The notes under the pieces were generated by a model. It made no database searches and was not told the DNA's origin. It was given only the letters and a program-made list of their open reading frames with translations. Positions 4,301-33,492 of a stretch of 64,000 nt of DNA are shown piece by piece. The first letter of the stretch is position 1. Each line of letters starts with the position of its first letter. The position numbers and the translations under genes were made by a program. Source of the DNA: Congeria kusceri (lineage: Eukaryota > Mollusca > Bivalvia > Myida > Dreissenidae); contig JAPFQT010000083.1 in assembly GCA_027627225.1 (NCBI GenBank), positions 682,001-746,000 of the forward strand, written 5' to 3'.

Positions 4301-5580
4301 CATGTGTTCACCCTTACAACACCAGCAACTGTCCATGGACCTTCCAAAGGCAGACCCACGAGGTTGACCGTTGTTCAGCCTTCACAGCAATGCCACTTTC
4401 CAACTTCACATATAACTTTCCTTATAATCAAGGATTCCCTCAGACTCACACAAACTTTCCTTTCTCCCACCCTTACTGCAACCCCACATCGCATTTAAGT
4501 CCAAATCAATCAAACAACTGTACATCCGTTACCACTGCTGTGTTCCAAAACGATGCTAACTTTCCTGGATCTTCATCTAACATTGCCTCCTCAACTGACT
4601 TCAATACCAATTCTCATGTCACTGGTGTGTCATCAAACTTTTCTGCATCAAGATTCATGTCATCTTCATTGGCCTTGCTTGAAGACACAAGTGATATTGA
4701 TGTAGAGACAGAGTTAGATGACACCACAGACACAGAAACCCAACTTAACTGTTCTGAAACTAACACAGAAACCACCAAAACTAACACTAAAAATCAATGC
4801 CCCGACTGCATTAAAAAAGATGCTGAGATCGCAGACCTACGGATGAGGCTGTATAAAGCAGGAATATGGAATAACAAATGCTATTGGAATAATGTCAATC
4901 TTGACATTTTTGTAAGGCCAAGAAAACAAGACTTAACCAACCAATTATATTATACATGTAATTCCCTATTCTAATCATTTCTGCATTTGAATAATATTGT
5001 TGTAAAAAACAATCTTTAAATAAATTATGGACTTATTATACCCCCGTAAGCCACTCTGTCGGTTGGTCAGTTTGTTTGCTATTAAGGATAGTTTGTGGAG
5101 CGAACTACTTTCACATTTGTCAAGCCTTTAAATTGAAACTTCAAATGTGTTGTCACCATGAAGTGTAGCTGTGCGAGACACTTCAATCCATGTTTTCCAC
5201 TATTCTGTGGTATTTAATTGCTATGAACATAAGTGACAAAGCTGTTTGTGGGTATTAGTGACACTTGTGACAACGCTCTGTTTTATTTAAAATACTTAAT
5301 TTGACACATTACTTTAAGTCTAAATAAAATACTACAGTGTATATTTTAATATTTTCTTTAAGTGAGGATTTTTTTCACTTCTTCATAATGTGAGAAAAAA
5401 CTGTCATCAGGAATGTTGATCTTAAACTTCGATTGACCTTCTTTGCATTCAAAGATCTTATTTAGGATGCATCATGTCACTTTACTTTTTACAGGTGCAT
5501 CTCGTTCCCAGGGTGAAGTTTTGACTAAAACCAGGACCTACAAGCCTAAAACAAGACCAGACTTGAAGATGGGAGAATAC

Positions 5581-6414
5581 GTAAGATATTATTTCTAGAG
5601 AAATATTTGATAAACTGCAGTCCTTTTTCAGTCAGGGGTTTCATTAAGTTTTACATTAGGCGGATGCTTTCCTATGGTGGCATAGAACTGCCATACGATA
5701 ACCACATAAGTTTCGCGATAATTATCACGTTAACCACTTAAGTATCGTGTTATTTATCTTGTATCTTGTTAGTGTTCGCGATAGTTTTCTTTGTCATTTA
5801 TTTTCTGCTTAACTGAAATCTGGCCTGAAAGTGCCCCAAACTGACATCAGGATTTCAGTTAACAAAAACATTACATTAAGTGGTAACAGGAATATTAACG
5901 TGTTATGATTTACGTTACTAGATAATTATCACGAAAAATTTCGCGATATTCAGATACTGCGGAAGACCTCGAAAACAAATTAAGTAGTATCAGGAATATT
6001 ATCGTGTTAAGATTTACATTGCCAGATAATAATTATCGTAATATTTATATGGTGATACGAATTTTTTCGCGAACGCTAAGTAGTTAACGCGAAAATTATC
6101 GCGAACCTTAACTGGTAACAGGAATTTTATCGTGTTAAGGTTTACGTTAGCAAGATATTGCGGAAGACCTCGGGCGCAATCCAACATTTGGCGGTAAAGT
6201 GGAAAATGCAGTACCTAACAAAATGACTCCGTATGATACTGTCAATAATTGACATTAACATCGAGCGTAAATTCTAAACATAGCGTAAATAGTGTTACAA
6301 AGTTCTTTGGTGTAAATACTACTCATGGTGACGAATTAAACCACCTAGTGTGTAGACTACCGCCATTATTTGCGGTAAAGATTAAGAAGAATTAGAAGAA
6401 GAAGACGAAGAAGA
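5581..6414. repeat. Intergenic repeat of 'CACGTTAACCACTTAAG / GGTAACAGGAATATT' units
   Basis: About 5690-6175 is built from related units rich in TTATCACG, TCGCGATA and GGTAACAGGAATATTATCGTGTTAA-like words; three copies start near 5880, 5980 and 6111, and two end in GCGGAAGACCTCG. The block lies just upstream of the CIDE-N gene start. No ORF. Confidence 0.6.
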
Positions 6415-10450: not shown

Positions 10451-10531
10451 CATCGTCGGATACCCACGACTAATCAGTCCGTTACACTCCAGTATTAGCC
10501 GTGGGTTAATACGAACAATAAGCGCCGTTTT
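10451..10531. repeat. Left terminal inverted repeat
   Basis: The 18-bp perfect terminal block, then imperfect pairing in constant register with 27555-27637. The exact outer end is uncertain by a few bases because flanking bases show no pairing and no duplication. Confidence 0.75.
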
Positions 10532-10626
10532 GACATGTAATGTAACCTTTCCATCGGCCAATGAAATTGCTGCTTACAAAATGAATACTCTTCGCTTTAG
10601 AGGAGTGAACGGATAACATCAATAAT

Positions 10627-11099
10627 GGTCACAATATACTAAAAGATTTCCTTAACAAATTCAATGTAAAAGCAATAAATTCAACAAAAAATAAACTCAA
10701 CATTTTGCGCGTAGAGACCCTCATAACCATACCTTTTCTTAAAGAGCATTCCGAGCCGAATTGATTTAGACAATAAAAAAGATAGGTCATGTGATATGTA
10801 AGAAAGAACTCGACGCGAATCAAAGTTCACTGTTTTAGGGCCATCTTTTTACCGGCTACTCTCCAGTTGAAGGTATACTGCCAACTGTCAAAGTCTCGTC
10901 ATGTAGTCTCCAACCTTCAAGCGAAACAGTGAATTTTTAGTACACAACAATGTTTTTCCTACCACACGTACAAAGAAATATTCAAAAATAAAGTCATGGC
11001 AAGTGACTATACAGAACATTGTGTCTTCAAATAAATGGTGTTGATTTATTTAGAGAGTATAGCATTGCACACCTGAAATATTTAGTATACTGTAACCTA
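10627..11099. repeat. 473-bp direct repeat, copy 1
   Basis: Matches 14421-14893 over its whole length with two differences seen (C/T at 10708 / 14502 and C/A at 11017 / 14811). Copy 2 ends directly before the ATG of the DUF6589 gene, so this unit is the leader and probable promoter region of that gene. Copy 1 is separated from its gene by the nested insertion. Confidence 0.95.
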
Positions 11100-11815
11100 T
11101 AAGAGAAATTTGTTCTCATTAAAATTAGTTTTTATTGCATATAATTATCTTCCCATGCATATTGCACCAATATATTAAGTTTGGCTTGTATATCTGTCCA
11201 TTTGGCCATTTTATTTCATATTTTCAAACACAGGTGATTTTGGTCGGAAGCCGGTGATTTCAAGCGTCTTGAAGCTTAAATGTCCCTCTAACAATTAAAG
11301 CTGATATTTGCTATATTTGTGACAAAATACCCAAACAAACCAAACAAACATGTATGGGGGGCTTATGTGGGGTGAGGAGAGAATGACTTTGTTAGATATT
11401 TTTACTCTAAGCCATTTTGATAATATATTTTTTGTGTATTTTTTTAAAAAAATCACCCCAAAAATGTAAATTTAATAGAAAAAAAATTCCAATTTCATCC
11501 AAGACAATTAACAAATTAGTCAAAATGGGAGATCAAAGATACTTTGAAGTGTAGAAATCAATCAGCTTCCTGTAATTGCTTGTTTCAAAGCAATAAAGTG
11601 TAAAATCTTTAAAGCACCTTGTTTGTCGCAGCCTCTTTAATTACAGGCCACCAATTATATATTCTAGTATATAATGTCATGAGTGCCTTTAAACTGCAGC
11701 AGGTGGTCAATTTGCATTGCCTGCTCACATTTAGAGGTTTAAGGGAATACAAAATTGCATATTTTGGGCACAAAATAAGTACTTTGACTTCTTTTAAGGT
11801 GGCAATCTGGTCAAA

Positions 11816-13774
11816 ATGGGGTTCATAACCAAGCAAAAGAAAAAGTTGCTCAATGTTGGTTTTAAACGAGGTGGGACTAGTCCGGTGAAGGGGAAAAAAC
11901 ATAATTATGAAAGAAGGTCAAATTCCAACACAACCTATGTAAGGTTAGAAAGGTCATCCTTTGAAGCACGGGTAGCTTACAATGACAAGGTTCTTACTTT
12001 TCGGGATGTAGACGGCTCTCAAACCCCAGCTAAGCCCTTGCGTCCGAGAGCGAACAAGATTCGCTATGTAGACCTGTTACGGGTTCCTGCTCCATCAAAA
12101 GTCCATCCCGATTTACTTACGAACAAGGTCTATGTCCCCGCCCTACTCCAGTCTATGATGTCCTCTGAAAATAGAAAGCATAGGTTAAGAAGTGATAAAT
12201 GTAGGGGCGACTTGGTAATTGACGGCAGTGCTTCCATAAAGTGGGGCTTAGGCTGGGAGGAAAGGTTAAAATGTACAAGATGCAGATATGTAGGCAAGCA
12301 TTATAAGCTTTACAATGAGGTTCCATCAAGTACCAGGGGCAGAAAGGCAGCTCAGATCAATGTAGGGTTCCAAATAGGTGTTGCAAGTACTTCTATTGGG
12401 AACACAGGTTCCCGCAGAATTCTCAACACAACCAATATCATTGCTCCCTCTCCACTTGCTATGCAAAAACAAGCAAATAAGGTCAATACTGCCCTTAAAT
12501 CCCTAAATGAGAGAAGCATGTACCAGATTAGAGAAAACTTAGTTGCTGAAAATGCCAAAATTGGTCAAAAAGATCCCTCTAAGGTAAATGTTGAAGGGGA
12601 CACTTGCTACAACAATCCAATTTTTAACTCTGACGCGACACCCTTTCAAGCCGGAACTATTGCCATAAGCACTATGTGTGAAAACAATACCAGAAACAAG
12701 CAAATTGTAGGGGTACAAGTAGCAAATAAACTATGCAGGACTGCATCAATGCTTAGGAATAAGGGTAAACCTGTTCAGTGCCCCAATCATAGGGGGCATT
12801 GTTCCGCAAATGTTTCAGAGAGGGAACCAATAGGTGATGAAGGCAAATGGAATAGGTTGTTAGGTGACCAGATCTCTAAGGACATCAAAATAGCAAATTT
12901 CGCTTGTGATGGGGACAGTAGGGCATTCCAAGGTGTTCGTAACTCTCACGGTCACAATGTGGGTCATCTTAAGGATCTGAGGCACCTAGGCAACTCGCTG
13001 AAGCGCGAGCTCAACAAAGCGCCTTTCTCAAAGGGCATGCTCAAGGGTCATTCCAAGTCTAATATCAGGAGTCGTTTCGCTCTCTCGGTCAAAGCTAGGT
13101 GTATGGCTGAGCTTAAAGCTGCCCACAATAAACACCAGGGTGACATCAAGGTTCTAAAGAAGGTCATGGTTGATGTAATCGCAACCATTGTTCTATGCTT
13201 CAGTGGTTACTGCGGTACTCATTGTGCAAAGTACAGTTATGTCTGTGCTGGTACAAATAGGCAAGCTAAGAATTTCATGCCAGACAATGTCAAGGTTAAA
13301 ATGGTTGACAGTGACCAACAAGTCCTTAAAAAATGCATTGAAATGGTTTTAGGTCCAGCTGCTCTTGACGCTACCAAACTTTTAACCACAACCCAAAAAA
13401 GTGAAGCAGTAAACAGGTCGTACCAAGCTGTCAATCCTAAAACTGTGACTTTCTCACGCAACTGTGTAGGTCGAATTCACGGGCAGGTTCACAAATTAAA
13501 CAATGGCTATGCTGACTCTGTAATTGCAAAAACCACTGAACTAAATGCTAACCTTACCCAGGGGTCAAAGATTATTAAGCAGATAGCATATGAGGACCGC
13601 AACGACCTTAACCGAAAGCAAACATCCGCTACCAACAAAGCACGAGCTTTACGTGCCAGGACGCGGAATTATCGATACAAACTGCATGAGGAATTACACT
13701 ACGGCAAGGGCATGAGTGACCCCAAACCTGATTATGACAGTCTTCCACACCTTAAGCATCATAAATATGCTTAG
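11816..13774 (+). CDS. Mutator-like transposase domain protein (652 aa)
   Basis: One uninterrupted ORF. Basic N-terminus (1-50), a zinc-ribbon-like pair CTRC at 153-156 in LKCTRCRYVGKHYKLY, then RGRKAAQINVGFQIG at about 174-188 and SIGNTGSRRIL at 193-203, which I recognise from the metazoan 'Mutator-like transposase' proteins (Pfam Mutator-like domain). Likely DDE residues are D262 (GDTCYNN), D365/D367 (CDGDS) and E530 (TQKSEAVNRS), with the family's CTRHL-like motif as KDLRHL at 386-391 and RSRFALSVKARC at 418-429. Its expected job is cutting and joining transposon ends in the nucleus. The reading frame is intact, unlike the host element's genes, which fits a younger insertion. The family is clear to me; the catalytic residues are inferred by position only. 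Confidence 0.82.
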   Translation: MGFITKQKKKLLNVGFKRGGTSPVKGKKHNYERRSNSNTTYVRLERSSFEARVAYNDKVLTFRDVDGSQTPAKPLRPRANKIRYVDLLRVPAPSKVHPDLLTNKVYVPALLQSMMSSENRKHRLRSDKCRGDLVIDGSASIKWGLGWEERLKCTRCRYVGKHYKLYNEVPSSTRGRKAAQINVGFQIGVASTSIGNTGSRRILNTTNIIAPSPLAMQKQANKVNTALKSLNERSMYQIRENLVAENAKIGQKDPSKVNVEGDTCYNNPIFNSDATPFQAGTIAISTMCENNTRNKQIVGVQVANKLCRTASMLRNKGKPVQCPNHRGHCSANVSEREPIGDEGKWNRLLGDQISKDIKIANFACDGDSRAFQGVRNSHGHNVGHLKDLRHLGNSLKRELNKAPFSKGMLKGHSKSNIRSRFALSVKARCMAELKAAHNKHQGDIKVLKKVMVDVIATIVLCFSGYCGTHCAKYSYVCAGTNRQAKNFMPDNVKVKMVDSDQQVLKKCIEMVLGPAALDATKLLTTTQKSEAVNRSYQAVNPKTVTFSRNCVGRIHGQVHKLNNGYADSVIAKTTELNANLTQGSKIIKQIAYEDRNDLNRKQTSATNKARALRARTRNYRYKLHEELHYGKGMSDPKPDYDSLPHLKHHKYA

Positions 13775-13950
13775 TTGATTGTGTACCTGATAATAAATTG
13801 TTATTATTACCTGTTTTGGCATAAGAGACCTCTAACAAGTGGCCCTCGCGTCAGCATCAGGCGTTCCTCTACCTGAAAAAGGCAAAAATACCCAATAGAA
13901 ATAGATATAAAATGAAAAAAAACATGCATTTATGTATTTTAAGTGTATTT

Positions 13951-14382
13951 CTATGAATAAAAGGAAGTGATAAAGCTTGTTGTATTCATGTTTTTACCAA
14001 ATATGCAGGCTGGCTCAGTTCCATGCCCGCTGCACTGTCCGAACTGTAAACATGTCCGCCGTTCCATGTTGGTGGAATGGGGCTCTATGTTTAAATGTTC
14101 AGGCTTAACACACAAGCTATTGTTGCATAAGTGGCTCACAGAGTCCCTGGCGTTCAATTCTGACTTCATGTAGCACATTAACGCTACACGGTGAACCAAG
14201 TATGTCTCTGATTTTATGTCCGAAGGCAATTTAGCCCTCATTCGGCCATAATAGGGTAAGGAACTATTTGAAATACAACCATTCCAGATCAAACAATCTG
14301 AATTGATGCATTTAATGCACTTATTTTCTACTCTTTTGCTCAGAAATGACCAAAAATCTGCTTTCTCATCCATATTTTGCAC
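13951..14382 (-). CDS. I-PpoI-like His-Cys-box (His-Me finger) endonuclease, 143 aa
   Basis: Intact ORF. The N-terminal FWSFLSKRV and CLIWNG segments, YYGRMRA at 44-50 and YLVHRVALMCYM at 61-72 lead to the signature VSHLCNNSLCVKPEHLNIEP at 82-101 and CLQFGQCSGHGTEPAC at 111-126. Compared with the rDNA intron endonuclease I-PpoI, H84 would be the general base and N105 the metal ligand, with C86, C91, H96 and C111, C117, H120, C126 as zinc ligands. It belongs to the zinc-binding-loop homing endonuclease family (zf-His_Me_endon). It converges on the transposase ORF with 176 bp between stops. Inferred role: DNA cleavage helping the element move or spread; alternatively a passenger gene. Confidence 0.8.
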   Translation of the reverse strand: MQNMDEKADFWSFLSKRVENKCIKCINSDCLIWNGCISNSSLPYYGRMRAKLPSDIKSETYLVHRVALMCYMKSELNARDSVSHLCNNSLCVKPEHLNIEPHSTNMERRTCLQFGQCSGHGTEPACIFGKNMNTTSFITSFYS

Positions 14383-14420
14383 TTGCAGACGATATTTTAT
14401 TTTAACCCAAAGTCAGTTTA

Positions 14421-14893
14421 GGTCACAATATACTAAAAGATTTCCTTAACAAATTCAATGTAAAAGCAATAAATTCAACAAAAAATAAACTCAACATTTT
14501 GTGCGTAGAGACCCTCATAACCATACCTTTTCTTAAAGAGCATTCCGAGCCGAATTGATTTAGACAATAAAAAAGATAGGTCATGTGATATGTAAGAAAG
14601 AACTCGACGCGAATCAAAGTTCACTGTTTTAGGGCCATCTTTTTACCGGCTACTCTCCAGTTGAAGGTATACTGCCAACTGTCAAAGTCTCGTCATGTAG
14701 TCTCCAACCTTCAAGCGAAACAGTGAATTTTTAGTACACAACAATGTTTTTCCTACCACACGTACAAAGAAATATTCAAAAATAAAGTCATGGCAAGTGA
14801 CTATACAGAAAATTGTGTCTTCAAATAAATGGTGTTGATTTATTTAGAGAGTATAGCATTGCACACCTGAAATATTTAGTATACTGTAACCTA
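14421..14893. repeat. 473-bp direct repeat, copy 2 (leader of the DUF6589 gene)
   Basis: Copy 2 of 10627-11099, about 99.6% identical by eye. Its last base precedes the ATG at 14894, so the gene keeps its own upstream region despite the insertion. Confidence 0.95.
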
Positions 14894-15188
14894 ATGGCGG
14901 CGGCCATAGAAAATAAATGCGTATTATGTTTCGATTTAATTAAGGGCAAAACTTACAGAAATATCAACTCAATAACCAGTTTAAATGAATACGGACATAT
15001 TTTCAATCAAATAAAGATAACTGCTTCTGGAAATGCGTGCAATATTTGTGTAAATAAGTTTAACAGAATAAACGCGTTGGATCGCAAATTACAGTGCATC
15101 GAATTGGAAAAGAATGAACTGTTGACAAAATTAAAGACCCTGCCTGGGGCAGTTGAGACCAACAAATGTGGCACTGTAACGCCACATG

Positions 15189-15791
15189 GTAAGTTAAATT
15201 ATTTTGATAAAAAATTTGAGGACTTAGTCGCCGCTCATTGCCATTTTAGATTAGCTTTTCAGATTCAGGTTCATGTAATATTGAAACTGTTATTCTGATA
15301 TAATTGAACAATTACAATACAATTTACAATAAGTTATGGTGTACCTAATGATCTTAACAGAAAGTTCATTAGTTTTGCCCTCAGAAATTATACTTGTCCT
15401 ATTGGGCAAGTTAAGTCTAATTCTAAATGTGCAGACTTTAATATCAACAGTTAATAATGAGCCCTGGGTCAAAGTTGTTATGTTTTTTTGCCATAATTGC
15501 CAGTCCTGACTGATAAAAAATAAGTTAAATCTACAGAAATGTGTAGGTTGTCATTTCTTGCTGTTAAATGCTCAAGGAAAATCACTGTTCAAACTGACAC
15601 TATGTTTTTCAGTCTGACAAAGTTTCCAGGGTCGTCAGTTCTTACAGGCACTTATTTTAGAGTGTCTGCATATCTGTCCCCATTAGCTCCCCATTCTCTG
15701 AAAAAAAAACACCAGAAAAAACTAGTATGCTGTATACAATCTTTGTAATGTTTAAAAAAGGTGGCATATAGTCTTGTAAAAAATATTTCAG
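15189..15791. other. Intron 1 of the DUF6589 gene
   Basis: 603 bp, AT-rich. I see no gene or classed repeat; 15390-15420 has the short inverted word ACTTGTCC..GGGCAAGT. Confidence 0.6.
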
Positions 15792-16370
15792 GTGGAAAGA
15801 ATGTAAAACGCGCTCTTGACCATTCTTCACCTACCGGTGTAACTCCCAAAAGTAAGAAGTCCCTGTTTAGGAGTCCAATAAAAACCACACCAGGGAAACC
15901 GACGGTACCTGCGACCAAGCCTGGTGAAACAACTCTAAAGATTGACCCATCAACAAGTGCGGACACACAACAGACACAATTTAATAGAAAGCACTTCCAT
16001 GTGAAGGTATTTAGAAAAGCTTTGCTGTTATAGTGAAATGTCATAGAGTTCTTTTTACCTTATTTTTTTTTATTTCATCATAAGTTAAGTATAAATAAAA
16101 GAGTTCTGGCATTTTGATGATGAAAACTGACCTCTTATAATGTATTCATGAGTTGAAGTACGTTGCCTATAGTATAACCTTGTCAAAATATGTCAATAAT
16201 GCTTATTTCTAAAATCAAATCTCAAGTTAAAAAAACAACACAAAAAAACAACAAACAAACATTAGACATAACTCCACATAAGGTTTAGATAAATTAGTAC
16301 TGTCAATAAAACAAACCTGTTTTTTTTCTCATATTGATGTGGCCAATATTAATACTATTATATTCAGTCC

Positions 16371-16688
16371 TTAAAGGGACTTGTTCACGTTTTGCAAAAT
16401 GACAATTTTAAAAAACCTTTTCGTCAATATTTTGGAAAATATGTGTTTAAAGTATGTGAATAACTAACATAGCGTTTAAATACACTGTTAATTTCAAATG
16501 CCTGAGTGGTGCAGTGGTAGGGTGTTCGCTTTTGCTCCTAAAGGTCCCGGGTTCGAATGCCAGGCGAGGCAAACTTTTTTCTTGCTATTACAATTATTTT
16601 AAACTGTTCCAAATATTATGGTTTTGTTTGTAACTACATTTAATGACATTTTTACAAAATACGAAAATCTGTGAACAAGTCCCTTTAA
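16371..16688. mobile_element. Inverted-repeat element with an embedded tRNA-like module (intron 2)
   Basis: The ends pair: TTAAAGGGACTTGTTCAC at 16371-16388 against GTGAACAAGTCCCTTTAA at 16671-16688. In the middle, 16498-16572 reads like a tRNA gene with A-box TGCCTGAGTGGTGCAGTGG and B-box GGTTCGAATGCC. A relative at 50204-50713 has the same ends and also carries a tRNA-like module. Confidence 0.75.
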
Positions 16689-18019
16689 ACCTTATTGTAT
16701 TTAAAACAGCCCTTATCTGAAGCTATCTAACTGCCTTAAGACCTATGTTTCACTGCACAGAAGACAAACAATTTTATATGCTTAAATGTTGGCCAAATCT
16801 CTGTGTGATTATCTGTAATTTTAATGGTGGTTTCTTTTGTCCCTTAGGTGACATTGATGCATAATGAAACGGAGAGATCGAGAATCATAACTGATCACGT
16901 GGAACAAACTGCCATTAAAGCACTGATGAATAGGAAAGGACCAGAAACAGTAATGAAACATCTGTCAAAATCTAGTACATACAGATCAGCAATGACACAA
17001 TGTGTAACTAAAGACATAATACAGGAAGTGTCAAAGTTTTCAAAGCGCTCGGAAACTGAATTTAAAGTGAAGCATGATGACGATTTAATGAACTTTAAGT
17101 GGGACGAACAAGCTAAAATTATTAAAACAAAAGTGCCAACACTTGCAGCTATCATCAGCTGTGTTATGGGTGAAAAACAAAAAACCATGGCCCGATTAGT
17201 TGTTGCTGTCAGTGTCATGTTGTATGCCAGATGCCAGTTGCTGAATCTTCCTCAGTTCATTCTTGGTATAGTGTTAGACAGTTGTGGCTTGAATAAAGAG
17301 GTAAGAATGCAATAATAGGTTTACATCATTGTATATTCACTTTTTACTGCATACTAAACACATAAATGTCGAATGCATTAGATGTTATATACCAGGGCTC
17401 TTTCAAGTCAAAGTTTTATCTGGTCAAGTTCTTTTTTAACAATTGCCCAATTGGGCAAGTAGAAATAGCAATTCTACAACATGGAATTATGGGTTTAAAC
17501 TGAAATCTAAACAAAAAGTGGTGTATTATATGTTCTGTTTGTCCGATGCTGACAATTCATTTTGTTATCGGAAAACAGAATCACATACCAGAGATGCATG
17601 TCAAGTCTGAGAATTCCAAATTTACTTTTAAATATTCCATTTTAAAAATACAGTTTTGAGAACCGATATACTAAAATTGTATTGTACCCTGGGGCCAGAA
17701 AAGAACACAGTTCACAGAAATTGCAGAGGACTTTGAGTAATATTGAATATTTGTAGGGTATATGATCTGTTTAAAATAAATACAATTAATTTTATTTGTT
17801 GTATTGAACGGTTTAAGCAGTAAATATGGTATGTTATGCACAGGCTAGTAAATTTAAGGTCAATTACATTATCAAAGTACTTGCCTGTCAGGACAAGTTG
17901 GTTTGAAAGATAATATAGAGTCCTGTATAATATTTTTCCATGTTATTTATTAAACAGTTAAAAATAAATCTTATGAAATGAAATTAATTTCAAAACCTAC
18001 AGCAAATAACTATCATTAT

Positions 18020-18790
18020 TATGCCCCGCCATGATAATGGCAGAAGGGCATATAGTGTTACCCCTGTCCGTGTGTTAGTGCGTGTGTGTGTATGTATGCA
18101 ACAACCATGTCGCTCGCTTCAAGGTTAAGGTCACAGCGGACACTTGAAGTTTTCACTTATTCCTTATATGGATATAGTGAAAGCCCATAACTTTGTAGTG
18201 CAATATGTGATTCCAAAATAAATTGGCACAAATGATCATCATATCAAGACAACGTGTCGCATGCAACAACCATGTAACTTGCCTAAAGGTCAAGGTCAGG
18301 GTGGACACTTGAAGTTTTTGCATATTCCTCATATGTATATAGTGAAAGTACATGTTCGTGCCTGGCCCATAACTTTGACGTGCATCATGGGGTTTTGAAA
18401 TAAATTTGCATAAATAATCATCAGATCAAGAGGACTTGTTGCATGCAACAACCATGTTTCTCGCTTAAGGGTCAAGGTCGCATTGGTCACTTGAAGTTTG
18501 TGCATAGTCTTTTATATGGTAATAGTAATAGAAGATGTTAGTGTGACTGTCAGTTCTATTACTTTATTGTGCTTTGGCAAAAGTTTTCATCATTTTAAGA
18601 CGACATGTTACATGTGTATATGCACCAACTATGGTGCTCGCTTAAAGGTAAATGTCACAATTGTGAAATAGGCTTTATGTGTAGCAACAGTTACAAAGGA
18701 CTGGTACATACATGCTGTGTTAAATGTTCACATTATGTCTGTCACACAACATTCGTTTCTGTGTCCAGTGACATATAGCGGGGGCATCTG
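18020..18790. repeat. Bivalve-type tandem repeat, about 175-bp units
   Basis: Starts TATGCCCCGCCATGATAATGG and repeats the core 'GCAACAACCATGT..CGCTTAAAGGTCAAGGTCACA..GGACACTTGAAGTTT' about four times (near 18095, 18265, 18440 and 18610), increasingly degenerate. Confidence 0.7.
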
Positions 18791-18954
18791 TGTCCAAATC
18801 ATACACATTTATAGGATCATAATCATTTTATTCTTGCTGTATTGAAAAGGGTAAGAGGAGCTTTTATCATGTACATGTATTTGCCTTTGTCTGTACATAA
18901 CTTTATGTCCAGTCTGTATATCCAGAATAGTGTGTGACACTAGAGTATTATATA

Positions 18955-19303
18955 CAGTGCTCCAGCTAGGATTTGAAAAGGGCAGGGTGCTCTTTTGTCA
19001 AAAGGGCACTTTAGTGCGTGCGGTCATATTATCCCTGTGGCATATTTTCAATATAGCATGTGTTATATATATATATATGTATTTCATATTACATGTATTT
19101 TCATTTAAAACATTGTTTCTATAATCAATAAAACTAGTTTCACTGTGAAAATTAAGTTAATTTAATGAAACTTCAAATAAAATTTGCTGTATAATAATGT
19201 GATCAGATCAAAAAAGAGCATGGCGGGGGCCCAAGAGGGCAGGGTGGGACCTTGGGGCAGCAGGGTGCTGCGCCCTTCCGTTTAGGCCTAGCTGGAGCAC
19301 TGC
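18955..19303. mobile_element. MITE-like element, 349 bp
   Basis: Terminal inverted repeat CAGTGCTCCAGCTAGG / CCTAGCTGGAGCACTG, followed by further pairing of GGGCAGGGTGCTC-like sequence. No ORF; it sits in intron 3 of the DUF6589 gene. No clear target duplication. Confidence 0.75.
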
Positions 19304-20133
19304 TGAGTAATGACCCTTGAATAAGTCCATTTTTCGTCTTCTGTGGTATTTGTTAGAAATCGGAAGATACATATGTCGAGTTATAATTATTTCTTTGCCA
19401 TTTTGATATGAATGTGTTATTTATTTCATTTCCAGGGTTTGAATATTGTGCATGACTTGGGTTTGGCTGTTTCCTACACAAGCGTTCACAAGCAAAGGAA
19501 GGACCTAATGAAAAAACAGAAAGCAAACATCGACCATGTAGTAACAAACTTTATTGGACAGGATCACCTGGAAGGGTCAGAGACCAGACACAAGACAATT
19601 AAGGTACTTGGGGACAATTTAGATGTTACTATATCACCCACACATATGATCAAGGACAAACAAAGAAAGAGTCTTCACTGGTTTTTAACCATGGTAAAAC
19701 AACGAAGGGTAACATATGAAGATCTACATATGCCAGGACCAGTACCTGAACAGCCTAGTGTCATTGAAATACCATCACATAAATGGCTTCCATCTGAGGA
19801 GCAGGTGAAAAGTGTTCTGCATGACTTCAAGTTTCACATTTCTCGTGTGTTATTAAAGTACATTGAGTTTCTGAAACCGCTGACAGATTCTTATCCCGAG
19901 TACATTTCACATCCCTTCTTGGAGTTCACAAAAAGAAAATCTGTGATTCTCAATACAAATCTCATAAATGAGAGTGAAAACTCGTCCCAAGGCATGATTA
20001 AAATTCTACAGGATGTGCAAGACATGTCAGTGCCTAGAGTAAATGATGATATTTTACAAAGGGTGGTATTTGGGGGAGATGTCCTCACAAATGAGAGGGC
20101 TTTTTCTGCTCAACAAGCCATGCAGAACAACTT

Positions 20134-21109
20134 AACTGGTCGTGATCGCTTGTTTGGTGTGATTCATAGGCCAGAGGGACTCCACCGGCAGTTCAACTGG
20201 TCGTGATCGCTTGTTTGGTGTGATACATAGGCCAGAGGGACTCCACCGGCAGTTCAACTGGTCGTGATCGCTTGTTTGGTGTGATACATAGGCTAGAGGG
20301 ACTCCACCGGCTGTTCAACTGGTCGTGATCGCTTGTTTGGTGTGATACATAGGCTAGAGGGACTCCACCGGCTGTTCAACTGGTCGTGATCGCTTGTTTG
20401 GTGTGATACATAGGCTAGAGGGACTCCACCGGCTGTTCAACTGGTCGTGATCGCTTGTTTGGTGTGATTCATAGGCTAGAGGGACTCCACCGGCTGTTCA
20501 ACTGGTCGTGATCGCTTGTTTGGTGTGATTCATAGGCTAGAGGGACTCCACCGGCTGTTCAACTGGTCGTGATCGCTTGTTTGGTGTGATTCATAGGCTA
20601 GAGGGACTCCACCGGCAGTTCAACTGGTCGTGATCGCTTGTTTGGTGTGATACATAGGCTAGAGGGACTCCACCGGCTGTTCAACTGGTCGTGATCGCTT
20701 GTTTGGTGTGATACATAGGCTAGAGGGACTCCACCGGCTGTTCAACTGGTCGTGATCGCTTGTTTGGTGTGATACATAGGCTAGAGGGACTCCACCGGCT
20801 GTTCAACTGGTCGTGATCGCTTGTTTGGTGTGATTCATAGGCTAGAGGGACTCCACCGGCTGTTCAACTGGTCGTGATCGCTTGTTTGGTGTGATTCATA
20901 GGCTAGAGGGACTCCACCGGCTGTTCAACTGGTCGTGATCGCTTGTTTGGTGTGATTCATAGGCTAGAGGGACTCCACCGGCTGTTCAACTGGTCGTGAT
21001 CGCTTGTTTGGTGTGATTCATAGGCCAGAGGGACTCCACCGGCAGTTCAACTGGTCGTGATCGCTTGTTTGGTGTGATACATAGGCCAGAGGGACTCCAC
21101 CGGCAGTTC
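20134..21109 (+). repeat. 61-bp coding minisatellite, 16 copies
   Basis: Starts at 20134, 20195, 20256 and so on every 61 bp give exactly 16 units before the sequence resumes at 21110 with ..TTCAACTTCCTACTT. Unit 1 is normal exon 4 coding sequence (AACTGGTCGTGATCGCTTGT.. encodes LTGRDRLFGVIHRPEGLHRQF). Copies vary at three sites: ATTC/ATAC, GGCCAG/GGCTAG, GGCAG/GGCTG. The 15 extra copies add 915 bp, a multiple of three, but each junction shifts the frame, so TGA appears at 20204-20206. The first and last copies share the GGCCAG/GGCAG variants. Confidence 0.95.
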
Positions 21110-21121
21110 AACTTCCTACTT

Positions 21122-22496
21122 GTAACTCTACAGTTTTGGAGTTCAAGAGTTCTTGTTTTAGAGTTCACATTTTGATGCATGTAAGTTGGTTCCTGTTCTT
21201 TAGAAAAATGATATTTTCTGCTTAATCCAATGTCATTCCAGTTGTATATCAGAGATTTGTTCCTGAGTTAATCATAATCTGTGTCTAAAAACGATGTTGG
21301 ATTAAGCAAACAAATATCAAACTGTCCTTTTTGTTGTTGCGCTGTAAAGTTACTCATTCATGTTGTATGTGGTCTGTTATTTACAAATATGATTGATATG
21401 TTTGTAATCATTATTTGAATAAGGAAATATTTGAATTAAATTAAGAAATTGCTTGCATCAATTTTAAATGACAGTCAAATCCATAAAAGTGGTGAATGAG
21501 TTCCTTTAAAAGACTTGCTTTTTTGTCTGTGGTTTGTTTTGCTTCATGTTTTTTTTTTCTTCAAAGTTAAGATGATATAAAGAGTGAGTTTTATACTTTC
21601 ACAAAAGTTCACACATGAGAGACATGTTTGTCAATATTTCAGTTATTCTTTAAATTTATGTACAGATCAGAGACTATAAATTAGCTTATAAAATATATTC
21701 TGGCACTGCTTGTACATGTATTTTTAATGAAGGGACTATAAGTCATTTTGTAACTGTATTAGAAGTTTCAGTAAGTTTGTAATAATCTTATGATTTTTAA
21801 AAAACTTTATTTGTCGTTTTTAGCTCACCAGAGCACGAAGAGCTCAATTGTGAGCTATTGACATATTATATTGTGGTTTTCTTTTTTCCGTCGTCCGTTT
21901 TCCAACTACATTTGGTTTGTGAACAGAATAGCGTCTTTGTCTCTTAGCCGTTCTTAACGAAACTTGCACAGATTGTATATGACCATGGGATGTCGGACAA
22001 TTTCAATTATGGGCTAGATCGAACTAGTTACACCAGAACTCCTTTTGATAAAAACAGACATCATGGCCCTCTTGTTAAGAAAGTGTGTTAAACTTCAACC
22101 TAGTTTTCTGTCCTACCTGATATCTATAATTTTAATTTGGCATGATTGAAATACATGCATCTTCACAATTTGATTTAAACACCGAATTAGACCCATTTAT
22201 ATCACTAAATTAAAAACTGGCCTGGATGATCACCATTGAGTTCATGTCTAGTGGGGTTAAAATTAAAACTTTCAATAAAGTCTTCAATAAACACTAAATA
22301 TTCATAGCATTACTGTTTTAAGAAGTAAAAGCCTGAATACAAATTAGTTATTTTCAATCATAGAATTAAAACAGAACAATCATTCAGTCATTGTCGGGAG
22401 TATTTTAAAAAGGACGATCTATGTAAATGTTACAATTTGTTTTTATTAAGATTTTTTTCAGTGCATTAATCAATGAATTGGTCACTTTATTTTCAG
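21122..22496. other. Intron 4 of the DUF6589 gene
   Basis: AT-rich. 21826-22095 is a bivalve interspersed repeat (AGCTCACCAGAGCACGAAG.., CGTCGTCCG.., CTTAACGAAACTTGCACAGA). No supported exon. Confidence 0.6.
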
Positions 22497-22618
22497 TGCA
22501 TTTATCAGCTCTTCTACAAGGCGAGCAGCTCTATGGACGCAGGCTCCCTATACCAAGTACGGAACCTGATCAACAGAAGAGACGTCACAGGACCAGAAGA
22601 TGTTGTACAAAAATTTCG

Positions 22619-23103
22619 GTATTATTCTCAAAACTTTCTTCTGAAACCATCCTAAGGGTCTGATATTGATAGAAATGTACAATAATGTAACATGCCTGAT
22701 AGGGGCTATAATTATTATAACAGGATAGCCTGTATTGCAAATAAAGTTCATTTGACTTGGCTCATTCTTTATGGCGACAAACTGTATTGAAATTATGACA
22801 GTTCTTACTAACTTAGTAAAGTTGAAAAATGGAACACACATTTTAAGAAAAAAAAAAATTTTGTTTGTAGTTTTGGTTGTGTCTGGGCTGTAACTTGATC
22901 ATTGATGGTGGAAATATAGAACTACTTCGCACAAGTGTTAATTATCCTTGAACGACATATCCTGTGTTTCAACCTTCAAGGTGAAGTTCCCACTTAATTG
23001 GTTTTAATAGGTTTTATAGAACTTAATTGTTCTCAAAATCTACAACACATAAAATTGTATGGTTGGCGCTATTTGAACTATATTTCTGTTTGTATATTTG
23101 CAG
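22619..23103. other. Intron 5 of the DUF6589 gene
   Basis: 485 bp of AT-rich sequence; nothing else recognised. Confidence 0.6.
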
Positions 23104-24109
23104 GCCTCATCAGCAGTTCCTTGAGGACGTCACTGACAGCTACATTGTTGCAGCCTGCCTCGATGTCATGGAAGACTCAAACTTGATCCCAAAGCAGCCA
23201 CTACATTTACTTAGCAAAGAACAACAAATTGAGTTTGTGGACGATATGTCTCAGAAGGTGATGGATTGTTTTAATCTAGGTGACACTGAGAGCGAGAATA
23301 TGACAATTCTAAGAAATGACATTAAAGCCATCCATACTGATGATGAGCAGCTATATGCAATGAAAGTGAATGATCAGTTCCAATGTGCACTGTGTGGAAA
23401 ATCGTACACATCACTTGTCTGGTTCAAGAAACATTTAACAAATAAGCATCATTGGAACTTTCATCGAGCGAATATCAATGCCAATGGAAGCAACGCAGTC
23501 AGACAATTTCTATTCATATCCCTTCTTTTTAGAGACACTTTTGACTGATATAAAATGTGTGATGGTGAAAGATCGTTATGTAATGCTCATTTTGAATGGT
23601 TGTATGACTCTGCATTGAAACATTCTAAGTATAAGATTTCGTTGTGGCGCATGATATCTTATACAATGTCAATTTTAGGTTTCAGGGTAAGTTTTGAATA
23701 CAAATGGAATATAAGTGTAAATTTGAATGAGGGGGTTCGCAACGACATCCCTAATGACAATGCTGTTGAAATACGGGTCAATAATATTAAAAGAGAGCTA
23801 AATACACAAGGGGCAAACAAATCCTACGAATCTGCCAAACAGATATGTATGACGACCCAAGTTGTTGAAACTATTAAGCAGAATCTTATAAGAACTTCAA
23901 GGACAGCCAGATCTAAAACAAACGGGCCTGAAGTTGACAAAAGTGGGGATATTATGAAAATAGTTGAGTTCCTTAGACAAAGAAGTGCCATGAAAAATGT
24001 GTGCTGGAATAGTTTTCAAACCTTCAAAGACCCTTTGAGTGGTATTGATGCTGAGGACCTTCACATCTGGATCAATGATCAGAAAAAAATCGCACAAAAG
24101 TATATGTAA

Positions 24110-25778
24110 AAATGGAAAACCATGTTTCAGTGAGCTATAGTTTACAGATCCCCTTGACAAGTTGTTACACTAACTTCTATGCCAACTATTTAATCATTTA
24201 ACCACATACTCAGAAAGTATCAACTCAATTTCATCCAGGCATTTCTGCCCCTATATAATTAGGGTTGCGTTTTTAATTTTATGTACACACAAGAACACTA
24301 TAGTATTTCAACAGCATATTCATTAGGAATTTGTACTCTGAACTTGAAATTATTCAGTGTACAATGTAGCTGTCAATGAAATCATAGAGATAACCATTGT
24401 GTTTCTTTTTATAACAATTGCCAAATTACTATAAGAATTGTAATAATGTTACTATATATGTACAGAGCTTTCACTAGCCTCCAAAAACAAGGAGTCAAAA
24501 TACTGCTTATGAACATTTTCTGACAGTAATAATCATATGAAATTTATACTATCATCAGTGTATGTATAGATTTAAGTCCTGTGTGATGATTGATTGTTGA
24601 CACTTTTACAGAATTCTCTGTGGGTCAAAACATGTTTCAATAGTCAAATGAAAACACTGATGTATTTTGATAATTCTCATTTATTATGGTAATATAAATT
24701 TTTGTTGATATTGGCACAATATGCATGTACTTATGGGCTCCTAGTGATTGCTATTTTATGGTTGCCATAGGTAATAAATGATATACTTTTATATACCGGC
24801 ATTTTAACAATTGACTCGTTATTAATTTACACATTATTAAATCTATCACTGATTACATGGTTGTGTTTTTTTTTACATGTATAAAGATCATGTTGAGATA
24901 TGAAAAAAATCAGGCTCCAATATTCCAAAAACTATTATGTCTATTAATACATTTTTTTGCTATATATAGTCCATTATTCTCATTTCATATGTACAATACA
25001 TGTGCTATTAAAACAAAATTGTGATTTAGATGCTCAATCCTTCTCATTATGCTTCTAATGTCAGAAAGAACCTACGGTATATAAACATTGGGCCTGATTT
25101 GAGTTCATGTCACAACTGAATGTACTTGGTCAAGAAACAACCACTGAGTCCTGTTGATGAGAATAATCCTGGGTACGTATTCACCAACCCATTCTAAGAC
25201 TTAAGACTAAAGAATAGACTTAAACTCTGGAAATAATACATGTTCATTTGTAAATATAATTGATACAAATTTTGCCAACGTCCTAGTTAATTATTCTAAA
25301 TAAAAAATGCTGTAATTTGAGTGGGTGAATGCCTTGTAAGATTTAAATTTACAGCATATGAAGAAAAAATCAGTTTCAAGAATATTCTTTATTCTGAGAC
25401 TTAAGTCTAAGAATTGGTTGGTGAATACGGGTCCTTGATAATGGCCCAATATACGTGTATATAACTGAATAACTTGTGGTTGCCGTGTCCTCTAGACATT
25501 CAAGGGGTTTAATTCACACAAAGGATTTATATTTGCTGCCTCAAGATATCCACATCAGTGCTGGTTTCTAATCAGGAAACGGACTAAAGTTTGTGTTTAG
25601 CTCGACCATTTATAGAATAATGGGGGCTTTTGCAGTTTCCCTTGTGACCACATTGCATGTTTGCATGTATGCAACTTAAACCTTTATAACTAAATGTTGT
25701 AAGTTTCCTTAGACATAATACGAAGAACATTTCAGAATTTAATAGCTCAATATTTACAAAACGGTATTTAATGATCAT
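24110..25778. other. Spacer between the two convergent genes of the large element
   Basis: AT-rich, no ORF of interest. Contains the MITE-like element at 25171-25434. Confidence 0.6.
25171..25434. mobile_element. MITE-like element of the GTATTCAC family
   Basis: Ends pair as inverted repeats: GTATTCACCAACCCATTCTAAGACTTAAG at the left and the complement of CTTAAGTCTAAGAATTGGTTGGTGAATAC at the right. Related copies lie at 37978-38242, 48637-48886 and 51744-52010. Confidence 0.8.
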
Positions 25779-27448
25779 TCAATCACTAAAATCACTAAAG
25801 TTGTTGGAAATGTCTGAACTTCCAGAGCTTGTTTCAATATCTGATAGATCTAGGTCTCCTGTCAAAGCTTCTGAAAATGGATGCCTGTAAGAATCACAGT
25901 CGTGATCACCACAATCACATTGTTGTTTACAAATATCACAACACAAATGCTTTGCCAGGCAATTTCCAGCATCAGTATTATAGGCATTTAACAAAACATT
26001 CCTGCGGCAGTCTGAATCATTACTTATGTAACTTTTCATATCACTGTCAATGCCTTTACAATGCCTCCCACAAAATAACAAAAGTGCGAATGCCTGACTT
26101 CCATCTCTACCTGCTCTACCGAACTGCTGTACAAAACTGTCCATGTTTTTCGGAACTCCATAGTTTATGACATGGTTCACACCCTTAAAATTCACGCCCA
26201 TGCCAGCAGCACTAGTTGCAACTAGCACTCTTATCATCCCATCATAGATTCCCATGTCTTTCTTTATTTCTTCCTTTACATTTTCCGCAGTCTGAGAATG
26301 ATACATATGCACATATTTAATGTCATTATCCAGTTCCATCCTAAACATTGTAAACAGGTCACTACAATTTTTTTATTGATGTACAAAATATGAGGTATCT
26401 TTCACATTTTGCTTTCTTGTCTTTGATCAAAGTTACTAAATACTTGAAAACTAAACAAAGAGGAATGCTACTTTTATACTTGCGACAAAATAATTTTATA
26501 TTTTGACGGTCTGGACTTTCAACAATTTCAAAACACTTTTGCATACAAAAAAGTTGTTTCACTTTTGTTCGAGAAGCTTTATTTGCTGTGGCGGTGATTA
26601 ATAGAATGGGACACTGGACCAAGGAACGAACTTCTCCTAACTTCCCAAACCACTCTCTAAATGGCTTATGCTCCTGTTCACTGTCAGACTCTCCCCTAAA
26701 TTTAATAAAATAAGTGCATGTATTAAAATATCTTAAAATTTTCTACAATATAACACACGACAATAACGACCAAACATTTACTTCCACATAAAATTACAAT
26801 TGGACTTTTTCGTATTTAAGCTGTTGTTTTCTATACAACATAGCGGAAAACATTTGATGACAAATATTTACTTTTTTAGACAATTTTTAAGCTAAATCTG
26901 GTCTTATAATACTGGAGTGTAACAGAATGGTTGTTGTGGGGTCCGACAATAATGTTATTATTATTATCATCAACGATAACTAAATATACTCATTGTAAGA
27001 ACATTAATTACCAGTGTATAATTGTATGAGCTTCATCAACAACTATTAGGTTAATTGAGGTGCTGGTCCTCATCATGTCCCGCCACTTCAGAACACCAAG
27101 TAGACTTTCTGGTGAAGAATATATAAAGTCATGCACTCCTGATAAAATGTCTGATTCTTCAGCAGGATCTCTAGCATTGAACACTAAGGACGTCAAGTAT
27201 TCACATTGTTCCTTCATGATTGACAAGAGTGGTGTAATGACAAGAACTTGACAGGCAGTGCACTGATCACGTTTAATAAACTGAAAGATTTGATAAACCA
27301 GGCTTTTCCCTCCACCTGTCCTGGTGCTTAAAAACACATCACGTCCATCTAAGAGATTAACGATACTTCTTGTTTGAAAGTCACTTAATTTATCAATTTT
27401 AAAATGTTCGAATGCTTGCTGAAAAACTAATGGTATGGACGTCGCCAT
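25779..27448 (-). pseudogene. RecQ-like ATP-dependent DNA helicase of the large element (one frameshift)
   Basis: Two exons on the minus strand: 27448-27012 and 26695-25779. The join is phase 2 and restores a Trp codon after DEAHTIIH. Start MATSIPLVFQQAFEHF. Walker A TRTGGGKS at 42-49, DEAH at 138-141, then LLITATANKASR (motif III), YLIFCTSIKK (IV), VLVATSAAGMGVNFKGVNHVI (V) and QQFGRAGRDG (VI). The C-terminus has a Cys-rich zinc segment (CLAKHLCCDICKQQCDCGDHDC) and an acidic Ser-rich tail. At about 450 aa it has the helicase core and zinc region and lacks RQC/HRDC-like extensions. Within 26368-26374 the run of seven A (coding strand) puts the frame into TAG; six A would read straight through. 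The gene starts about 110 bp inside the right terminal repeat. Likely role: strand separation during transposition or repair (inferred from context). Confidence 0.85.
26696..27011 (-). other. Intron of the RecQ-like gene
   Basis: 316 bp with GTAATT at the donor and TTTAG at the acceptor on the minus strand; AT-rich, contains an ATT run. Confidence 0.75.
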
Positions 27449-27554
27449 TTTGAAAAGAAACCCAAAGTGCAGACAGTACGGGCGGTATCATTGGTCCAAA
27501 TATCTTCATAAAACCATGAAGCGTCCAATGAAATCGCCGCATTTGACACACCCT

Positions 27555-27637
27555 AAAACGGCAAAAAGTGCTCGTAATGTCCCACGGTCGATGAATGGAG
27601 AGGAGCGGAATGGGTCGAACGTGGGTATCCGACGATG
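27555..27637. repeat. Right terminal inverted repeat
   Basis: Complement of the left end, 18 bp perfect at 27620-27637 and in constant register for about 80 bp. It forms the upstream region of the RecQ-like gene. Confidence 0.75.
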
Positions 27638-30600: not shown

Positions 30601-30616
30601 CATGCATATCTCACAA

Positions 30617-31862
30617 CCAGGCTACAAAACGACAACTAAACGATGCAATGAATTCACACCACCGAACGACGCAAAAACGTGACACAACCAAACGATGCAA
30701 CAAAGTGACACAACAAAACGATGCAACAAAATGACACAACCAAACGATGCAACACAGTGACACAACCAACCGATGCAACACAATGACACAACCAAACGAT
30801 GCACAACTTGAAAAAACCAAACGATGCAACGACGTGACACAACCAAACGATGCAACGCATTCAGAAACCAAAATAAACAACGATGTGACACAGCTAATGA
30901 CGCAACTACGTGACACAATCAAACGATACAATGAAGTGGCACAACCGACCGATGAAACAGCGTTCAGAAAACCAAACGAAGCAACGACGTGAAACAACGA
31001 AATGATGCAACGACGTGAAATAACAAAATGATGCAACGACGTGAAACAACAAAATGTTGCAACGACGACACACAATCAAACGATGCTACGATGACACACA
31101 ACCTAACGATGCAACGACGACACACAACAAAACGATGCAACAAAGTGACACAACTAAACCGTGCAACGACGTGAAACAACAAACTGATGCAACGACGACT
31201 CACAACCAAACGATGCAAGGAAGTGACACAACCAAACGATGCAACGACGTGACGCAACCAAGCGACGCAACAACTTGTCACAAGCAAACGACGCAACGAC
31301 GTGACACAACCAAGTGACGCAATAACTTGACACAACCAAGCGACGCAACAACTTTACACAACCAAGGGACACAACGACGTGTCACAACCAAGCGACGCCA
31401 ACAATTTTACACAACCAAGCGACGCAACGACGTTACACAACCAAGCGACGCAACGACGTGACACAACCAAACGACACAACGGTCTGACACAAGCAAGCGA
31501 CGCAACGAGATGACACAACAAAGCGACGCAACGATTTGACACAACGAAGAGAAGCAACGATCTGACACAACCAAGCCACGCAACGAGATGACATAACCAA
31601 GTGATTCAACGACGTGAAACAACCAAACGATGCAACGAGGTTACACAACTAAGCGATGCAACGACGTGATGCAACAACGTGACACAACCAAGCGACGCAA
31701 CGACTTGACACAATCAAGCGACGCAACGACGTGACACAGCAAAGCGACACAATAACGTGCCAAAACCAAGCGAATCAACGAAGTGGCACAACCAAGCGAC
31801 GCAACGACTTTACACAACAAAGTAACGCAACGACGTGACACAACCAAGCGACGCAAATGGGA
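30617..31862. repeat. Minisatellite, period about 26 bp, about 48 degenerate units
   Basis: Units of the form GACACAACCAAGCGACGCAA CGACGT with many substitutions; the left part has ACGATG and the right part GCGACG variants. Several long frames run through it on both strands (RLVVSRRCVAWLCHVVAS-like); these are by-products of the repeat. Confidence 0.9.
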
Positions 31863-31990
31863 CACGTGACACGGTGAAGACGAAAAGTAAGCAGAAATGA
31901 AATTATGCAGACACCAGTGGCACGTGTCCAGCACGAGGCTGGAAGGATGGACTGGACTATTTATCGCCAAACACACGGACAGGAGGCGCT
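31863..31990 (+). mobile_element. Tc1-like transposase relic, copy 2 (fragment)
   Basis: Reads QTPVARVQHEAGRMDWTIYRQ-like, matching the segment TTVARIQIEAAMKDES of the relic at 28431. It abuts the end of the 26-bp array. Short and degenerate. Confidence 0.35.
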
Positions 31991-31998
31991 CTAAGACC

Positions 31999-32312
31999 TC
32001 TGTAGGACTGTATTTTTCACAAATAATATTGTTCATATTTGTGAAAAATAGGATCTAATTCTTCACAGGTGTGAACATTGAGATCGTATTCTTCACACAT
32101 CACAGTCTTATTATTCACAAGTTCTGTGAAGTTTGTGATCGCATCCAGGTTTTGATATGCAATGAAACCATATTCTTCTGTAATCCTCAATCCTCATGCA
32201 TACCCCGTTTAAGGCAACGTGCATTCTTCACACTTACAAATGTGACAAATGAATTCCTATTCTTATTAGGTGAGTGAACAATATGATTTGTGAAAAATAT
32301 GATCCTACAAAC
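31999..32312 (+). mobile_element. MITE-like element of the TTTGTAGGATCATATTTTTCAC family, copy 1
   Basis: Inverted ends TGTAGGACTGTATTTTTCAC / GTGAAAAATATGATCCTACA. The inner sequence is rich in TTCACA words and matches copy 2 in reverse orientation (e.g. TTTGATATGCAATGAAA against TTTCATTGCATATCAAA). Confidence 0.85.
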
Positions 32313-32811
32313 CTCCAACTTGCAGCACCACTGTAGCGATGGTTGTTCTTTTACATCAATACAACTATAATTATTGTAAATCTATTGAAACGCTTTCCAT
32401 GATTTCTGGCGAAACTGCTAAAATAAGTAAACGACTTTTAATTTTAATAATGGTACGAAGAGCATAGTTTTTAATAAACCAAACGAACAATAATTTATGG
32501 GAATTTTTTAATTATGAAGCAATCAAAAGAAAGCGGATAACCTTGCGTATTACCACATCACGTTTACTCAACCAAAAATGAAATCTGACACTTCATAATT
32601 TGATACATCCTTTTTTTTTTTTTATAGTTAAAACCGATTTTAACCAAACCCAGTAAAGAGAAACATAACTAATGTTGCATCTGATACTGGAGTTGGTCGC
32701 TAATGTATAGTCCAAATGTCAAATGAATAACTTGTAGATTCAAGTCATTAGACTGTAACCAAAACATTGACGTTTTTAGTTAAGACGCAGTAGCTGGGGC
32801 GAGTTGGAAAG
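32313..32811. other. Spacer between the inverted MITE pair
   Basis: 500 bp AT-rich, T-run at about 32611; nothing recognised. Confidence 0.6.
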
Positions 32812-33119
32812 CTTTGTAGGATCATATTTTTCACAAATCATATTGTTCACAAACCTGTGAAGAATACGATCTCCCGTTTTTCACATTTATACGTATGAAG
32901 AATGCGATTGGCCCAAAACGGTGTATTCGCGAGGATCACAGAAGCTTATGATTTCATTGCATATCAAAAACTGGATGGGATCACAAACTTCACAGAAAAT
33001 GTGAAGAATAAGACTGTGATGTGTAAAGAATAAGATCTCAATTTTACACCTGTGAAGAATGAGAACCTCTTTTTCACAGATGTAAAAATATTATTTGTGC
33101 AAAATATGGTCCTACAAAG
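32812..33119 (-). mobile_element. MITE-like element of the TTTGTAGGATCATATTTTTCAC family, copy 2
   Basis: Ends CTTTGTAGGATCATATTTTT / complement at ATATGGTCCTACAAAG. Inverted relative to copy 1, 500 bp away, so the two could form a long hairpin if transcribed together. Confidence 0.85.
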
Positions 33120-33492
33120 CTCACATATTCTTCAAATATTCGAGCTATAACAATAATAGAACTGTTTATGAAAGATGATATGAAAGCACTTTAAAAACTA
33201 TACCTCTTGGTAGCGAAATATTACAGAAATATTTGATATAATAAACGCATGTTTTTACGTTGAGCTCAAATTTTATCTGTAATATACATGAATGATCATA
33301 AGCCATACGAAAGTATGTTGGTAAAGTATTATTAAACTCAATAACTTATTTAATTAAGTTTTTATTCGCTGCCAAAACAATACAACTATATACATTTTAT
33401 ATCGCGACAGGTGACATTGTAATAAAACAAACACTTTACTTTACTATACTTTAAAGACGTCAACATAACAGGTAACATGCGCACAATGACAG

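Follow-up and report, generated by a model that had tools for sequence, protein, structure and literature searches.

A DUF6589 gene and a convergent RecQ-like helicase gene in a degraded, probably AcademH-type DNA transposon of the bivalve Congeria kusceri

The window analysed here is a stretch of 64,000 nucleotides from Congeria kusceri (contig JAPFQT010000083.1, below C83, positions 682,001 to 746,000, forward strand). It contains an element of 17,187 bp with inverted ends, which carries a gene of the DUF6589 family (PF20231) and a gene for a RecQ-like helicase. We consider it very probable that this is a degraded copy of an AcademH-like DNA transposon of 11-12 kb, encoding a DUF6589 DDE transposase and a helicase dedicated to it. 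The reading rests on paired ends, 9-bp target duplications, miniature copies, a convergent gene pair kept in divergent families and selection on both genes, all of which are directly observed in the 1.55-Gb assembly. Helicase-bearing transposons as a kind were known before, whereas the label of DUF6589 has so far been "unknown function", and the literature searched contained no relevant paper under the names DUF6589 or PF20231 (one unrelated match).

Ends and mobility of the element

The 18-bp repeat CATCGTCGGATACCCACG lies at 10451-10468 and, as an exact inverted copy, at 27620-27637, as the first-pass annotation of the window had reported, and has no further exact place in the window. In the genome it occurs at 326 exact places (backward control: 0). 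That annotation had also argued that chance would not give such ends. Chance is excluded, but because of the 326 genome places against none in the control and the 17:0 orientation of pairs described below, not by the window alone, where several other exact 18-bp inverted matches lie 1-30 kb apart. The three inner blocks, CCGTGGG, TACGA and GCCGTTTT, lie at 49/60/74 counting from the left end and at 51/62/76 counting from the right end, i.e. the claimed identical spacing holds among the blocks, whereas relative to the terminal block the right-hand set lies 2 bp deeper. Beyond the 18 bp the two ends differ, the transposase-side end continuing with ACTAATCATTCCGTTACACTCC and the helicase-side end with TTCGACCCATTCCGCTCCTCTCC, or a near variant of these, in the copies read.

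For the analysis of pairs we used 58 of 100 listed CATCGTCGGATACCCACG places, excluding the 42 that belong to two tandem arrays on contig C3. Among these 58, 17 pairs less than 30 kb apart are head-to-head ("+ then -") and none is tail-to-tail ("- then +"); eight are 89-96 bp long, one 288 bp, one 1.5 kb, one 6.6 kb, four 11.2-11.7 kb and two 26-29 kb. Target duplications were scored in 16 pairs, comprising the window's own and 15 of the 17 (the two longest omitted), i.e. nine miniatures of 89-288 bp and six copies of 1.5-11.7 kb. A 9-bp duplication is present in 11 of the 16 (8 perfect, 2 at 8/9, 1 at 7/9), whereas mismatched combinations of left and right flanks (n=236) reach 6/9 at best. 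At 8 bp, no pair exceeds 5/8. The duplicated 9-mers vary in sequence between insertions. Other loci do carry these ends, and the proposal that the element is mobile stands on the 326 places and the 15 other pairs examined.

The miniatures of about 90 bp retain one end of each kind at a length of about 45 bp, which suggests that ends of this length are enough for movement; they point to the minimal end sequences of the element. At the other extreme, copy E4 (C4:16118729-16129976, 11,248 bp) keeps both ends and is flanked by a perfect duplication, with the DUF6589 exons on the plus strand and those of the helicase on the minus strand. It is decayed: exon 4 falls into two overlapping frames, and the helicase contains a stop. 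Copy E1 (L020-L021, C1:45395422-45406881) also has a perfect duplication; inside it lie pieces of the helicase in both orientations, an open reading frame (ORF) of 755 amino acids that resembles a reverse transcriptase and, from the DUF6589 gene, a 219-bp piece of the last exon only.

No duplication was found in five of the 16 pairs, namely L016 and L017, which have common flanks, E2 and E3, likewise with common flanks, and the window copy itself, whose 9-bp flanks match at 3/9. Across the 40 bp that were compared, the sequence to the right of the window copy recurs without change at C83:331 kb, on C16 and on C22, and that to its left at C83:314 kb. These loci, C83:314005-331186, C16 to about 330232 and C22 from about 288880, and the window element look like one insertion that was duplicated together with its surroundings (segmental duplication).

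The tandem arrays on C3 amplify the terminal 18-mer in 55-bp units, with 23 and 19 exact places listed. They lie at C3:91915900-91917900 (L028) and C3:100250218-100251335; L028, the one read, consists of the helicase-side end.

Predicted fold of the transposase and identity of the helicase

Both genes are recognized in the window by profile matches (DUF6589 at 19412-20206, E 1e-8; helicase DEAD, 1.8e-16, and Helicase_C, 2.8e-17), and they face each other, as annotated. For two relatives of the DUF6589 protein, P0002 and P0004, DDE recombinases rank first among the structural matches of the predicted models. The catalytic part matches best to the P element transposase (6pe2) and the Hermes/hAT transposase (4d1q), and RAG1 is also among the matches. 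The models predict an N-terminal ZAD-like zinc finger and an RNase-H-fold core with a long helical insertion, including a C2H2 finger, before the last acidic residue. On the strength of these models DUF6589 looks like a DDD/E transposase with RNase H fold, consistent with the role that the first-pass annotation had assigned to it. When the PDB was searched with the DUF6589 profile, the best 60 of 148 matches all fell on the C2H2 finger (profile positions 578-649). Most of the closest named relatives of the window gene come from bivalves; the 25 matches also include lancelets and one hemichordate.

The typed family-A helicase carries GGGKS and DEAH motifs and matches RecQ 1oyw, the E. coli enzyme, at E 8e-37 (residues 19-358) and WRN at E 4e-36 (residues 15-358). 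In the window copy the match to the RecQ zinc-binding profile (E 3e-4) falls short of the cut-off, which is exceeded in family C, a divergent family described below.

Pairing of the two genes and selection

Genome-wide, PF20231 gave at least 105 matches in at least 95 clusters (102 of 270 candidates scored) and none in 14 control genomes, and the family-A helicase at least 112 matches in at least 51 clusters (94 of 443 scored). Among the matches listed, 22 of the 95 DUF6589 clusters and 22 of the 51 helicase clusters lie within 15 kb of each other, and the two genes are convergent in 21 of these 22 pairings.

Two sets of observations weigh against our reading. Neither structure model has a match with an E value of 0.001 or lower in a plain Foldseek search of the PDB, and 73 DUF6589 clusters are without a listed helicase, just as 29 helicase clusters are without a listed DUF6589 match. 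E2, E3, E4 and L019, which are among the latter 29, were missed by the profile search: DUF6589 exons are present in E2-E4, and a DNA match shows exon 3 in L019. For five of the 73 DUF6589 clusters the downstream side was read, and in four of them (C10:41944051, C2:42299422, C13:7761864 and C4:9971869) it holds a divergent RecQ-like helicase in convergent orientation; C8:65497358 gave a weak helicase match of 28 residues (E 2e-4). The annotated idea that the two genes form one module, rather than occurring apart, is borne out by the 22 paired clusters and the four further loci.

The layout is kept in divergent families. In family B the helicase is 51-69% identical by exon, and the convergent layout and related ends are as in family A; a clear duplication is lacking in the single copy whose two sides were read. 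The helicases of family A and family C (C10:41944051) share 26% identity across 427 columns (E 1.4e-32). The right end of family C, CAATCTCCCAGCAGAGTTGTCG (L066, about 3620), is sharp, with 261 genome places at no more than one mismatch (control 0), and has no close head-to-head pairs among the matches listed; the left end was not found within 6.1 kb upstream. Convergent pairing that extends to divergent families supports the annotated view that the helicase is dedicated to the transposase.

Both genes are under purifying selection between subfamilies, but not within them. Between subfamilies the helicase has a ratio of nonsynonymous to synonymous substitution rates (dN/dS) of 0.10-0.23, and the two transposase exons have ratios of 0.12 and 0.30, whereas within subfamilies the ratio is, where defined, 0.72-1.89, on few differences. 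Synonymous sites are saturated when family B is compared (dS 1.8-2.0 and ratio 0.18-0.21 for helicase part 2; undefined elsewhere), and the comparisons of the window copy and of L047, its duplicate on C16, are not independent of each other. Low ratios between and higher ratios within subfamilies are read as upkeep of both genes while the element was active, followed by decay.

These data also bear on the possibility that a host RecQ gene was caught between unrelated repeats and came to lie beside DUF6589 by accident. RecQ-like genes are normally cellular, the window copy lacks a target duplication and further copies of its segment lie on C83, C16 and C22, all of which would suit such an accident. 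Yet 51 helicase clusters are listed, 21 of 22 pairings are convergent, the layout persists in divergent families and purifying selection acts between subfamilies but not within. An accidental host helicase is thus ruled out by gene pairing and selection, and we regard it as highly improbable.

Classification of the element

Within the Academ superfamily, AcademH is the lineage described as helicase-encoding (Kojima 2020); it is reported from animals as well as fungi (PMC10045372, PMC10799480). Passages of PMC10045372 give target duplications of 9 or 10 bp for AcademH and of 3 or 4 bp for AcademX and tie the difference to helicase versus nuclease. The DUF6589 element has a helicase beside the transposase (DEAD and Helicase_C, RecQ-like in the PDB search, nearly always convergent) and 9-bp duplications in the family (11 of 16 pairs), though not in the window copy. 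Inverted ends, expected of such transposons in general rather than from the AcademH paper, are present as well (18-bp exact, 17 head-to-head pairs). Academ is listed among the DDD/E superfamilies in a passage of PMC9587614, and the models of P0002 and P0004 predict such a transposase with RNase H fold. Since the helicase and the 9-bp duplications are both found, the element probably belongs to AcademH, judged from described traits. The annotation had named the helicase lineage of Academ as a possibility; this fits the published duplication length (PMC10045372). The Academ passages in PMC8290104 and PMC12210899 name no DUF.

The nuclease partner of AcademX is XPG. PF00867 (XPG_I) has six matches in the genome, none of them within 2 Mb of a listed DUF6589 match, where a strongly diverged XPG could be missed; a link to AcademX via this partner is not seen near these matches, which neither proves nor disproves Academ. 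MuDR was rejected, as DUF6589 ORFs, P0002 and P0010 match PF20231, zinc fingers or weak unrelated profiles and no MULE-type transposase.

It is unlikely, in our view, that DUF6589 and its RecQ helicase form a separate DDE superfamily, sister of the P/hAT/RAG group, which would resemble AcademH only in helicase and 9-bp duplications. P element and Hermes as best fold matches, and the lack of an XPG match near listed DUF6589 matches, speak for it, but exactly the combination of helicase and 9-10 bp duplications is described for AcademH (PMC10045372), the title of whose original paper names animals and fungi, and Academ is amplified in bivalves according to a passage of PMC10294476.

A further candidate is KolobokH, a Kolobok element with a RecQ helicase (PMC9587614, passage). 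It shares the helicase partner, but Kolobok duplicates TTAA, whereas the DUF6589 element duplicates variable 9-mers; moreover, DUF6589 ORFs match PF20231 and no Kolobok or Mutator profile, and the termini are 5'-CA, not 5'-RR. The 9-bp duplications rule out this identity, leaving it a negligible chance.

The window copy and its nested element

The window copy is dead and owes part of its length to a nested 4,265-bp element, which sits at the start codon of DUF6589 (Table 1). Its direct repeats of 471 bp (10627-11097 and 14421-14891) differ at two positions and enclose a PF20700 transposase (11798-13774, plus strand, E 2.9e-42) and a His-Me endonuclease-like ORF (13951-14412, minus strand, E 1.1e-10), so that the annotated statement that only two genes fit inside the ends was wrong. 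KolobokP is described with direct repeats of about 450 bp that enclose a DDE transposase and a His-Me nuclease, and Kolobok with TTAA as target duplication (passages of PMC9587614). The nested element is alike in its internal DDE transposase, nuclease and long direct repeats; we call it KolobokP-like because it is flanked by TAAT on both sides (10623-10626 and 14892-14895) instead of TTAA.

Table 1. Features of the window copy, in window positions
Feature	Position	Strand	Basis or remark
Left terminal inverted repeat CATCGTCGGATACCCACG, transposase-side end	10451..10468	+	exact match; genome-wide copies
Left-end block with CCGTGGG (10499), TACGA (10510) and GCCGTTTT (10524)	10451..10531	+	
Nested KolobokP-like element, 4,265 bp	10627..14891	+	direct repeats, PF20700, His-Me ORF
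DUF6589 exon 1, MAAAIENKCVLC..., ZAD-like zinc finger in modelled relative	14894..15188	+	similarity to E4 exon 1 and P0001-P0003; ZAD fold match of model; splice site by eye
DUF6589 probable exon 2, basic linker	15792..16006	+	sequence, likeness to relatives' linker; by eye
DUF6589 exon 3	16848..17300	+	borders by eye
DUF6589 exon 4, GDNLD (first D), FGGDVLTNERA (second D)	19436..20195	+	PF20231 E 1e-8; alignment A1
61-bp minisatellite at exon 4 end, 16.1 copies, 98% matches	20134..21113	+	breaks frame in window copy
DUF6589 probable exon 5	22498..22618	+	sequence and relatives; by eye
DUF6589 last exon, C2H2 finger, PNDNxVE (candidate catalytic E)	23102..24108	+	in-frame stop 23546-23548 in window copy
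RecQ-like helicase second part, Helicase_C and RecQ zinc-binding	25779..26742	-	two overlapping frames, i.e. frameshifted
RecQ-like helicase first part, GGGKS and DEAH, ATG at 27448	27008..27448	-	
Right terminal inverted repeat, helicase-side end	27620..27637	-	exact match; genome-wide copies

Repeats of the minisatellite type were also seen elsewhere. In copy E2 (L022, about 5204-5669) eight repeats of an in-frame unit of 19 residues ending in ...RDRLFGTIHRPEGLH lie at the conserved HRPEG motif of the transposase exon, and outside the element, at 30614-34008 and 54772-55327 of the window, long low-complexity ORFs resemble such repeats.

Mechanism and relation to known systems

In the mechanism that we propose, two genes starting near opposite ends of the element and converging would provide a transposase, with a ZAD-like zinc finger and a DDE core whose helical insertion may be comparable to that of P, hAT and RAG1 enzymes, and a helicase. 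We infer that the DUF6589 protein binds the two non-identical ends of about 45 bp and excises the element, which would then be inserted by 9-bp staggered strand transfer, and that the RecQ-like helicase may unwind DNA at the ends or the integration gap, or may help to restore the donor site.

With a predicted DDE fold and a regular convergent helicase partner, uncharacterised DUF6589 proteins become likely transposases, and the question why a cut-and-paste element would retain a RecQ helicase becomes testable. Doubtful, but conceivable, is a bolder view, in which DUF6589 is a DDE superfamily of its own, a structural sister of P/hAT/RAG1 whose co-evolution with a convergent RecQ-type helicase began before the families diverged. 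If so, dedicated unwinding would be a conserved part of the transposition mechanism, and its transposases would include many proteins of bivalves, lancelets and hemichordates that are now called "uncharacterized".

P and hAT elements make 8-bp target duplications, in contrast to the 9 bp found here, but the P element and Hermes enzymes would share with DUF6589, on its predicted fold, an RNase H core into which a long helical segment is inserted ahead of the last acidic residue. RAG-like transposons, whose RAG1L and RAG2L genes converge (PMC7204232, passage), are alike in combining a transposase and a dedicated partner gene in this orientation, and RAG1 is among the fold matches, but their partner is RAG2 and not a helicase. 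KolobokH has the RecQ helicase partner, with TTAA duplications and another transposase. AcademH, judged by its described traits, agrees with the DUF6589 element in being a helicase-encoding transposon with duplications of 9 or 10 bp.

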